Source: Candidatus Saccharimonadales bacterium (GTDB lineage: Bacteria; Patescibacteriota; Saccharimonadia; Saccharimonadales; Saccharimonadaceae). Taken from it: DNA of 64,000 bases. The translations under genes were made by a program, and so were the position numbers. Location of the stretch: positions 1 through 64,000 of the forward strand of contig DATHGB010000025.1 of NCBI GenBank assembly GCA_035317825.1, written 5' to 3'. Within the stretch, counting starts at the first letter, position 1; the number at the start of each line of letters is the position of its first letter. The notes beneath the pieces were generated by a model, which was not told the origin of the DNA, made no database searches, and saw nothing but the letters and a program-made list of their open reading frames with translations. Positions 24,556 through 27,384 of the stretch are shown piece after piece.

Positions 24556-25242
24556 TTACCGCGGGTCGCAGATCCCCAGCTGGTTGTTGCCGATCTTGCC
24601 CCAGCCGCCCTTGTTCGAAGCGGAGGACAGCAGGATCGTATCGCGCCAGTTGGCTTCGGGCACCTTGCCGTACAGGCTTTCGCCGGCGATCAGCGTGTCC
24701 GAGGGGAGCACACTCCCCTTCTGCGGGAACACCAGCAGGCCGGCCGTGGTGACGAGGGTCGAGACGAAGTTCGTCCCGTCCTTGTCGGTCGGCACCGTGC
24801 CGTTCAGCTGCAGGGGTATCCAGGTGGACACGTCACCGGCGCAGATGAGCCTGTGCTCCTCCGGGAGGAACTGCGGATCAACTCTGACATACCTGGGGAG
24901 GTCGCCGGTGCCGTACTCGTGGGATACCACCGTGATGGTCCTGCCGTTGGGCCTGACCGGCTTGACGGAGGGTTTCACGGCCGGTGTCGAAGTGGGTTTG
25001 GCAGTCGTGGGCGGCGTCGCCGGGACGGAAACGGTCACGGTCTTGTAGGCCGTGGGTCGCTGCGTCGGTTTCGGCGGCGTCGTCTTGTCGGGACCGGGAG
25101 TAGGCGTCGAAACGCTCGTCCCAGCCGTGGTCGTGGAGCTGGAGTCGGTGGTGGAAGTGGCGTCGTTGCCACAGCCAACCAATACGGGTGCAGCGGCTAC
25201 GCTCGCTGCTACGGTACAAAACAACCTTCGTCGGGTGTTCAT
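24556..25242 (-). CDS. Secreted lipoprotein, paralogue 1 of a three-gene family
   Basis: A 228-residue protein with N-terminus MNTRRRLFCTVAASVAAAP, lipobox LVGC (cysteine 24), then a Thr/Ser/Pro-rich linker (about 25-100) and a globular C-terminal domain of about 120 residues. Twin arginines before the hydrophobic core resemble a Tat signal. The C-terminal domain shares order and motifs with the next two genes: a first cysteine (LICAGD), GSVLPSDTLIAGESL, GGWG, and a last cysteine near the end (GICDPR). The DNA is GC-rich with G/C-ending codons, unlike topA next door. TATAGT ends 6 nt before the ATG. No known family; probably surface-displayed. Confidence 0.7.
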   Translation of the reverse strand: MNTRRRLFCTVAASVAAAPVLVGCGNDATSTTDSSSTTTAGTSVSTPTPGPDKTTPPKPTQRPTAYKTVTVSVPATPPTTAKPTSTPAVKPSVKPVRPNGRTITVVSHEYGTGDLPRYVRVDPQFLPEEHRLICAGDVSTWIPLQLNGTVPTDKDGTNFVSTLVTTAGLLVFPQKGSVLPSDTLIAGESLYGKVPEANWRDTILLSSASNKGGWGKIGNNQLGICDPR

Positions 25243-25248
25243 TTTTTC

Positions 25249-25277
25249 ACTATAACACTTGTGACTAATTTTGTCAA
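25249..25277 (-). promoter_or_regulatory. Leaderless promoter of paralogue 1
   Basis: TTGACA (complement of 25272-25277), 17 bp, TATAGT (complement of 25249-25254), then 6 nt to the ATG at 25242. Confidence 0.75.
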
Positions 25278-25308
25278 TCGACACGCCTCTTCCTGTAGAA
25301 ATATTTTG

Positions 25309-25343
25309 ACAAAGGAAAAGAGCGGCCTTTTTAAGGGCCGCTC
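25309..25343 (-). terminator. Terminator of paralogue 2
   Basis: AGCGGCC/GGGCCGCT stem (25321-25327 with 25335-25342); on the minus strand it is followed by TTTTCCTTTG. The sequence around it is similar to that at 25.9 kb. Confidence 0.75.
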
Positions 25344-25364
25344 GTGTGTTTTCCCAAAGATGTG

Positions 25365-25859
25365 TTAGCTGGTCTTGTCGAGCCGGCAGAGTACGAGGTC
25401 GTAGTAGCTCTGGTCCAGGTAGGCCACGTCGCCCCAGCCTCCCTCCACGATCGGGTCGACAGGCAGGATCATCGAGTGTGCGGTTCCGTTCTGCATCTCC
25501 TCTGGGAGGGGTGCAGCGAGCCGTTCACCGACGACCAGCGACTCGGCCTCGATGGCCTGGTCGCTGGTGATGATCGCGCCATCTTCCGTGATCGTCAGGA
25601 GGATGGTGCTGTGAGCGAGTGGCGTCGGGATGCCTGGCAACAGAGTGACGGGCATCGAGTAGTCGTGGTCGCACACCAGACCGCCGCCGGGGCGCTCAGT
25701 GATGTTGGCGACCTCGTCGATGATCTTGGGTATCACCACCATGGGTGCTGTGGAGGTACTGGGTTCGTCATCGTTGACGATGTTGACCGCAACAGCGGCG
25801 ATGATGGCGAGGATGGCTACGCCTGTCCCTGCAACTGCAAACTTCTTCAGGATGTTCAC
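25365..25859 (-). CDS. Membrane-anchored secreted protein, paralogue 2
   Basis: A 164-residue protein with one N-terminal helix (FAVAGTGVAILAIIAAVAV, about 8-26) that serves as signal or anchor, a short linker and a domain of about 110 residues. The domain repeats the pattern of paralogue 1: first cysteine (LVCDHD), GAIITSDQAIEAESL, EGGWG and a cysteine seven residues from the end (VLCRLD). Start is GTG at 25859, 6 nt after TATAAT with TTGACA 17 bp upstream, so the mRNA should be leaderless with a GTG start. Codon use is GC-rich. Family and function unknown; outside the cell by topology. Confidence 0.7.
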   Translation of the reverse strand: MNILKKFAVAGTGVAILAIIAAVAVNIVNDDEPSTSTAPMVVIPKIIDEVANITERPGGGLVCDHDYSMPVTLLPGIPTPLAHSTILLTITEDGAIITSDQAIEAESLVVGERLAAPLPEEMQNGTAHSMILPVDPIVEGGWGDVAYLDQSYYDLVLCRLDKTS

Positions 25860-25865
25860 TGTTTA

Positions 25866-25894
25866 ATTATAGCATTTATAGGTGTTTTTGTCAA
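25866..25894 (-). promoter_or_regulatory. Leaderless promoter of paralogue 2
   Basis: TTGACA (complement of 25889-25894), 17 bp, TATAAT (complement of 25866-25871), 6 nt to the GTG at 25859. Both hexamers are perfect. Confidence 0.8.
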
Positions 25895-25925
25895 TCAACA
25901 CCCTTTTCGATGAAAATATTCAGAC

Positions 25926-25957
25926 AAAGGAAAAGCGACCGCTGGATGCGGCCGCTG
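25926..25957 (-). terminator. Terminator of paralogue 3
   Basis: GCGACCGC (25935-25942) pairs with GCGGCCGC (25948-25955), allowing one G-T pair; minus-strand tail is TTTTCCTTTG, identical to that of paralogue 2. Confidence 0.75.
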
Positions 25958-26016
25958 GGGCTTCCCTGGTGCTGCAGTGCAGCTCCTCGGTGAAGCAGTG
26001 TGACACGTGACGTGTG

Positions 26017-26742
26017 TCAGCCGGTGAATGCGCAAATCTGGACGCGCCACCACATGGTGATGTCGGGAAGCCAGTCGTACGCGGTCAGGGTGACTTGGCT
26101 ACCTGCTGCCGTGGCGGGAAGCCAGGCGGCGTGAGCCTCGTTTACCACGATCGCGATCCGCCCTGGCTCGATGTCCAAGTCGCGCGGCGACAGCATCAGA
26201 TCACCGCGGTCCGTCCAGAGGTTGATCAGGTTGCTGTTGATGGCAACGCTGTCGTCTGCCTGAACGGGCTTCGAGACGATGCCGCCCATGGACCTACAGT
26301 GGACGAACCCGCCGTCGCTCTGAAGCAGACGGATGTCCATCGGGTCCTGTGCGGGAAGCACCGTCTGGCTGCCGTTGATGTCGGAGTCCACGGTCCAACT
26401 GCCGACCTCGTCATCCCACGCCGACTCGCCGAAGGGCAAGTTGTCGCAGAAGTACAGGGTGTCGTTGTACGAGTACCCACAAGGGTTGTTGCAGGTCTCG
26501 GAGATCCCATACGGGTCGATGCCGTACAAGCCGAAGAACTCGCAGGGCATCTCAGCTAGATCTTGGACAGGAGGAAACTCCTCCGGGGGCTGCGTCATGG
26601 ACACAGTCGTGGTGTGGACTTCCTGGGCGGGGGTCATGGCATCGCCGTAGGCGCTACCGATGACGACAGCCAGGATAGCTGCAAAGGTGACAGCGGCTAC
26701 GCTCGCTGCGGGGGACGTATCGAACTTCTCACGAAGGTTCAC
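26017..26742 (-). CDS. Membrane-anchored secreted protein, paralogue 3
   Basis: A 241-residue protein with one N-terminal helix (about 13-33), an extra Cys-rich segment (CNNPCGYSYNDTLYFC, about 85-100) absent from the other two, and a C-terminal domain. The domain resembles paralogues 1 and 2: FVHCRSMGG, GDLMLSPRDLDIEPG in place of the SDxxIxxES stretch, an aromatic segment near the end and a final cysteine (QICAFTG). Similarity is weaker than between 1 and 2. Start is GTG at 26742, 8 nt after a perfect TATAAT. GC-rich codons. No known family; secreted by topology. Confidence 0.65.
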   Translation of the reverse strand: MNLREKFDTSPAASVAAVTFAAILAVVIGSAYGDAMTPAQEVHTTTVSMTQPPEEFPPVQDLAEMPCEFFGLYGIDPYGISETCNNPCGYSYNDTLYFCDNLPFGESAWDDEVGSWTVDSDINGSQTVLPAQDPMDIRLLQSDGGFVHCRSMGGIVSKPVQADDSVAINSNLINLWTDRGDLMLSPRDLDIEPGRIAIVVNEAHAAWLPATAAGSQVTLTAYDWLPDITMWWRVQICAFTG

Positions 26743-26779: not shown

Positions 26780-27072
26780 TGATCATTATATGAGCGTCCA
26801 CTGGCTGCCGCCAAGAGCGCGGACTGTTCCTGCAAGCTCTACCGTAGTGAGCGATTAGTCACATTACCCTACGGGAATAGCAGTTCTTGTAAAAGCGTGT
26901 CGCCCGTCGCGAGTTCCTGCGTGTAATAGCGCGATAATAGAGGATTTTGGGAAGTAGCATTCCTATAGAATGTAATATTATAGCTTTTTAGCAATAATAT
27001 TTAGTATCTGTAAATAATTATGCTTATCTGGAGATATTCTATTGATTTCCAGATGTTTTATGTCAGAAACTG
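26780..27072. other. Non-coding stretch without recognised features
   Basis: About 290 bp, GC-mixed then AT-rich. No ORF, tRNA or strong hairpin was found. It separates the three-gene secreted family from the structured RNA unit. Confidence 0.4.
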
Positions 27073-27101
27073 TTGACATTGTGTCAAATACGTGCTAATA
27101 T
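27073..27101 (+). promoter_or_regulatory. Promoter of the 27.1-kb RNA
   Basis: TTGACA at 27073-27078, 17-bp spacer, TAATAT at 27096-27101. The predicted transcription start is about 27108. No ORF follows. Confidence 0.75.
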
Positions 27102-27107
27102 CAAACA

Positions 27108-27356
27108 CGATTGGTTGCTATGCGAATACAACCAAACGCACCTTATACCCCCTATTCTAACTTATGTTAGGTTGTGCGCAATGTGTTATTAAGTAACTAC
27201 CCTCCACTTTTTAGCCTAGAAAGCGTTGCGTGCATACTAACCCCTTTAACCGGCGGGCCTCCATATTTTGTGTGAGGTGGGTCACGCTTTACCCCTAGGG
27301 GTGTGTTAAAGGGCCAAATGGCGCCAGGTGATGCCCACCCTTACCTGGCGCTTTTT
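27108..27356 (+). ncRNA. Candidate structured non-coding RNA, about 250 nt
   Basis: A complete transcription unit without ORF: consensus promoter, then terminator GCGCCAGGT (27321-27329) / ACCTGGCGC (27343-27351) plus TTTTT. Inside: GGTTG/CAACC hairpin (near 27112-27132), CTAAC-TTAT-GTTAG (near 27157-27170), a 9-bp helix CCCTTTAAC (27242-27250) / GTTAAAGGG (27305-27313) enclosing CCTC/GAGG and CCCC/GGGG hairpins, and AAAGCGT (27220-27226) complementary to ACGCTTT (27284-27290) inside that helix, which would make a pseudoknot. It does not show tmRNA, RNase P, SRP or 6S landmarks. The metal transporter gene downstream starts 29 nt after the T-run with its own -10, so a riboswitch is possible but not favoured. 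Confidence 0.65.
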
Positions 27357-27384
27357 GGTTGGCTTTGATATTATCAAAATACCT

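Follow-up and report, generated by a model that had tools for sequence, protein, structure and literature searches.

In a 64,000-nucleotide stretch of DNA from a Candidatus Saccharimonadales bacterium (hereafter the window), we identified a structured RNA gene of about 250 nt on the + strand (27107-27356), which belongs to a previously uncatalogued family spread across the order (Saccharibacteria, very small parasitic bacteria). We propose that this gene stands on its own and encodes a trans-acting RNA, one that would occlude translation starts in the manner of LhrC and IsrR, while being much larger, more structured and older. From comparative sequence analysis we put the probability of this reading at roughly 0.6. 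The leading candidate target is the gene of a conserved protein, here called the SDDQ protein.

Definition of the RNA gene

The first-pass annotation had described an ORF-free unit bounded by a consensus promoter and an intrinsic terminator, and these elements were confirmed. The promoter (TTGACA-N17-TAATAT, 27073-27101, + strand) is of the sigma-70 type with a TG before the -10 element, and promoter-like sequence lies 5' of 71/72 homologues. Both ends of the gene were placed from promoter and terminator, so that it runs from the deduced 5' end at 27107 to the last T of the terminator run at 27356, and a covariance model matched over this interval (27106-27358, E = 1.4e-89). The terminator hairpin with its U-tract (P9, 27321-27356) consists of a 9-bp stem, GCGCCAGGT/ACCTGGCGC, followed by TTTTT; all 9 pairs show compensatory changes, and a T-run follows the loop in 69 of 72 homologues. 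Its 13-nt loop exceeds the limit of the scanner, hence it was missed by the automatic terminator scan. The + strand fold is far more stable than expected (z = -4.9, with none of 200 shuffles as stable), compared with z = -1.4 for the - strand.

No ORF of at least 40 aa was found wholly inside the RNA interval on the + strand. Chance short ORFs occur in some homologues, which could point to a small-protein gene or a dual-function RNA. However, the length of the longest ATG ORF ranges between 5 and 99 aa, with none seen conserved, and conservation tracks the helices and loops, with indels that are not multiples of a triplet; we therefore regard a coding role as very improbable.

Secondary structure and compensatory changes

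Compensatory changes strongly supported the fold. Among 29 sequences of the family, in an alignment that was not fitted to the model, both sides had changed at 37/63 modelled pairs. Across 72 sequences of the order, 60/63 pairs were compensated and 94 % of cells paired, a level equalled by 0/500 shuffles and compared with 30-53 % in slid controls, although fitting this larger alignment to the model biases it in the model's favour. By this measure the locus appears to represent a conserved structured noncoding RNA family, as the first-pass annotation had suspected.

The scaffold is made up of a 5' hairpin, a long helix tipped by a C-rich hairpin loop, the P5-closed domain and the terminator hairpin, all on the + strand. 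The 5' hairpin P1 (UUGGUUG/CAACCAA, 27111-27135) has compensatory changes in 7/7 pairs and is followed by the single-stranded C-rich segment L1, CACCUUAUACCCCCUAUU (27139-27156), near-invariant within the family and variable or lost in two genera. Next comes P2 (CUAAC...GUUAG, 27157-27170), a hairpin of variable length that grows long in relatives. The long helix P3 (27173-27234) pairs 27173-27183 with 27224-27234, is compensated at 11/11 pairs, and encloses the P4 hairpin (27185-27215), whose conserved apical loop UACCCUCC (27195-27205) was matched in 64/72 sequences. The 9-bp long-range helix that had been noticed in the single sequence is real and corresponds to P5 (27242-27313), in which CCCUUUAAC (27242-27250) pairs with GUUAAAGGG (27305-27313); 99.8 % of cells are paired, and 7/9 pairs are compensated. 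Within this domain lie the irregular P6/P7 hairpin (GCG-GGC with GUC-A-CGC, 27253-27287), with compensatory changes in 6/6 P6 pairs, and P8 (ACCCC/GGGGU, 27291-27302), which is followed by a G-rich GGUG segment. Covariation supports the helices P1 to P9. The proposed AAAGCGT/ACGCTTT pseudoknot was contradicted: its central pair is G-C in only 3/29 homologues, and its ACGC is part of the P6/P7 hairpin, where it closes P6 through GCG/CGC pairs kept in 29/29. We therefore rejected it.

Conserved C-rich segments

Three C-rich segments are exposed on this scaffold and strongly conserved, namely single-stranded UAUACCCCC, UACCCUCC at the tip of a hairpin and GAUGCCCACCCUU in the loop of the terminator. 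While the stems vary, these segments scarcely do so: CACCUUAUACCCCC recurs 5' of P2, the P4 loop reads UACCCUCC (or UACCUCC, in two genera), and the P9 loop includes GCCCACC. This P9 loop, at 27330-27342 and proposed here as the antisense seed, contains GCCCACC in 70/72 homologues. It takes two lineage-specific forms, GAUGCCCACCCUUA in the family of the window and its sister family and mostly GGUGCCCACCCCCU elsewhere. As in LhrC and IsrR, the segments look like conserved single-stranded C-rich seeds.

The P4 loop resembles an anti-Shine-Dalgarno sequence (CCUCC), and the RNA might accordingly act as a global repressor or reservoir on many Shine-Dalgarno sequences. Indeed, the pairing of this loop is stronger at translation starts (-6.97 kcal/mol) than inside coding sequences (-5.86 kcal/mol), beyond what shuffled probes achieve. 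However, the same preference is expected of any CCUCC probe, the 16S tail included, and no P4 target rose above shuffled probes, which leaves such a global role improbable.

Distribution and genomic neighbourhood

A covariance model built from 29 sequences detected the RNA in 212 of the 247 genomes sampled from the order, with few exceptions as a single copy, and in 110 of 130 genera. The same model, which may miss distant forms, gave no match in about 348 genomes from elsewhere in the phylum (5 from other orders of the class and about 343 others). A DNA search at a loose threshold gave a match in 196/198 genomes of the same family, most with significant E-values. Where public records with the core motif state a lineage, it is TM7, Candidatus Saccharibacteria or Saccharimonadales; the exceptions are one labelled Chloroflexi and two labelled only as Patescibacteria. 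The Chloroflexi-labelled contig, SEAL01000024.1, carries the RNA (E = 1.7e-77) and is probably a mislabelled or misbinned Saccharibacteria contig. Phage and plasmid collections contained no match to the RNA.

The usual neighbourhood consists of divergent topA-dprA, the RNA, and convergent pth and der. At 45/56 loci pth lies downstream on the opposite strand, and dprA is a neighbour at 41/56. In the window, the RNA does lie directly upstream of a ZIP transporter gene on the same strand, as first described, but this adjacency is not conserved, occurring at 6/56 loci only. Because of this rarity, we associate the RNA with the dprA-pth interval rather than with ZIP. A riboswitch or attenuator acting in cis on the ZIP transporter would fit the arrangement in this genome, but it would call for a conserved same-strand gene downstream, where most loci have pth on the opposite strand; the RNA also ends in a covarying terminator. 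Synteny thus largely refutes a cis-acting leader, and we give that explanation hardly any weight.

Two further features were seen beside the gene. On the - strand at 26792-27052 lies a dprA remnant, with N-terminal and C-terminal pieces, stops between them and the middle missing; in most relatives dprA adjoins the RNA. In addition, three ORFs without Pfam match, some of them lipoprotein-like, are found between topA and the RNA (24556-26739, - strand), in the place expected for dprA.

Comparison with catalogued RNAs

Rfam 15 gave no match above the gathering cut-off in the window or at 20 divergent homologous loci, and a permissive threshold yielded only weak chance matches around the RNA gene. 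The tmRNA and RNase P RNA of this genome lie apart from the locus, at C15:83959 and C15:81501, respectively. For 6S RNA (RF00013) there was no match in the genome itself and none over the cut-off in 21 genomes, and for SRP RNA (RF00169 and RF01854) 0/21 genomes matched either model. We rejected the housekeeping identities, the first two being encoded elsewhere and the last two having no match. SRP RNA and 6S RNA may be absent from this genome and the 20 relatives, or too divergent for these models. In one relative (L048), a 6S-like match below threshold lies next to RNase P.

Like 6S RNA, the new RNA is single-copy, widely conserved and, judging from its promoter and terminator, independently transcribed; unlike 6S RNA, a single long hairpin with a central bubble, it has a multi-branched fold. 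It shares with raiA and OLE a clade-wide distribution, a structured form and a function that was unclear at discovery, and differs from them in having no Rfam match beyond chance.

A literature search, which excluded preprints, supplements and most subscription journals, returned no description of such an RNA and no report of regulatory RNAs in Patescibacteria. A catalogue of candidate RNAs from the human microbiome (PMC8040213) could contain it unnamed. We rate it as a new RNA family with a known mode of action, set apart by its size, scaffold and age, and it merits an Rfam family.

The SDDQ gene as candidate target

The SDDQ protein (157 aa, MDIQPKAQQPISDDQELAKVL..., G000:C10:29276-29746 in this genome) is encoded near a GroEL-like gene and is present in 110 of 119 genomes. 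It has a Pro/Ala-rich N-terminus, which is probably disordered, and a conserved C-terminal region of 75 aa; no match was found in Pfam, NCBIfam or PDB. The gene has an unusual ribosome-binding site, GGGGUGGGC-AUG or AGGGGGUGG-AUG, to which the P9 loop is complementary. In most genomes the start region reads AGGGGUGGGC-AUG, AAAGGUGGGC-AAAAUG, AGGGGGUGG-AUG or similar. GGUGGG occurs in 27/55 and GGGUGG in 26/55 SDDQ start regions, as against 0/139 start regions of neighbouring conserved genes. Throughout the order the SDDQ gene almost always carries a motif of this class, which hardly any other gene has, while canonical AGGAGG-type sites are very rare at its start.

Target ranking in this genome covered about 628 kb of its 1.1 Mb, with 592 called genes; the SDDQ gene came first by predicted pairing energy, with -23.7 kcal/mol vs -18.5 for the next gene. 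It ranked only 4th of 676 in a second genome. For 45 genomes whose starts were trusted, the class-specific loop form was computed to bind the SDDQ start at -18.9 vs -15.2 for the reversed loop (p = 1e-5), and shuffled loops averaged -12.4. A paired test over two genomes was marginal for the P9 loop, 1/15 shuffled probes being equally strong, and not significant for L1 and P4.

The loop and its proposed target also appear to vary together. GGGGG is found in the SDDQ start region of 0/22 genomes with a CCCUU loop vs 19/33 with a CCCCCU loop (Fisher p = 4e-6, a value that ignores phylogeny and reflects few lineage splits). Several genomes without an RNA match still have a G-rich SDDQ start region. 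Bacterial sRNAs usually turn over quickly, whereas here seed/target co-variation across an order is suggested. Taken at sequence level, the RNA seems to share with LhrC and IsrR a conserved complementarity to the Shine-Dalgarno region of a target.

The P9 loop could alternatively be conserved for intramolecular pairing, because 70/72 RNAs hold an internal GGUGGG or GGGUGG with which it could pair. This would suit a structural RNA or RNP component in the style of 6S, raiA or OLE, which binds a protein or the ribosome and whose C-rich loops make protein-binding or tertiary contacts, the mRNA match being secondary or coincidental. The large multi-branched fold, the single copy, the order-wide spread and the invariant loops are consistent with such a role, as is the missing match to 6S and SRP RNA. 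Yet RNase P RNA and tmRNA are present elsewhere, there is no similarity to any Rfam family, and a structural role alone leaves unexplained why the target start changes along with the P9 loop variant, CCCUU or CCCCCU. We consider this explanation rather unlikely.

Proposed mode of action

As a trans-acting RNA, the scaffold would present up to three C-rich single-stranded segments. The terminator-hairpin loop, AUGCCCACCCUU (GGUGCCCACCCCCU in other families), would pair with the ribosome-binding site and start codon of the SDDQ mRNA, and this pairing would block 30S binding and thereby repress SDDQ translation. The remaining C-rich segments would probably contact further mRNAs or aid binding, and the internal GGUGGG segment may cap the P9 loop and so gate activity.

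This layout resembles two characterized systems. In Listeria, LhrC is shorter and exists in five copies. The three C-rich sites of LhrC1-5 of Listeria monocytogenes, the terminator loop among them, were demonstrated experimentally (PMC4132741), and the present RNA has a similar three-site layout. Unlike LhrC, it is single-copy, 250-400 nt long and order-wide, with a multi-branched covarying scaffold; no sequence relation was found. IsrR of staphylococci likewise has an sRNA gene of its own and three conserved C-rich regions, and it represses translation of its targets (PMC9410917), an effect shown for IsrR and only predicted here. IsrR is iron-repressed and its terminator is poorly conserved and lacks C-rich regions, whereas in the new RNA no segment is as conserved as the terminator loop. 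Having a testable target, this order-wide structured RNA offers a direct way into post-transcriptional control in bacteria whose hosts are themselves bacteria.

Other candidate targets

Among the start regions sampled from this genome, those of truB and the SDDQ gene stood out against the conserved segments, the first with L1 and the second with the terminator loop. We rejected truB as an L1 target: its match (-24.2 here) was missing from 29 relatives, and at that position many of them carry promoter-like TATACT/TATAAT. A VirB4-like ATPase (for L1) and an Hsp20-like protein (for P4), both named by eye from sequence, came top in the two-genome comparison. They were rejected as well: they did no better than shuffled probes, and the matches were not kept in a third genome.

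More tentatively, and with doubt on our part, the RNA might be a core Saccharibacteria regulatory RNA since the ancestor of the order, its C-rich seeds on a rigid scaffold controlling a small regulon that includes the SDDQ protein and possibly PilM and type IV pilus assembly. If true, a regulon with type IV pilus assembly would bear on growth on the host bacterium. PilM, by sequence a type IV pilus assembly protein, is the second-ranked gene in this genome. In 3/3 genomes examined (L278:13909 and the orthologues in G014 and G285), GUGGGC lies at or just before the pilM start codon, a lead suggesting that the terminator loop might have pilM as a second target.
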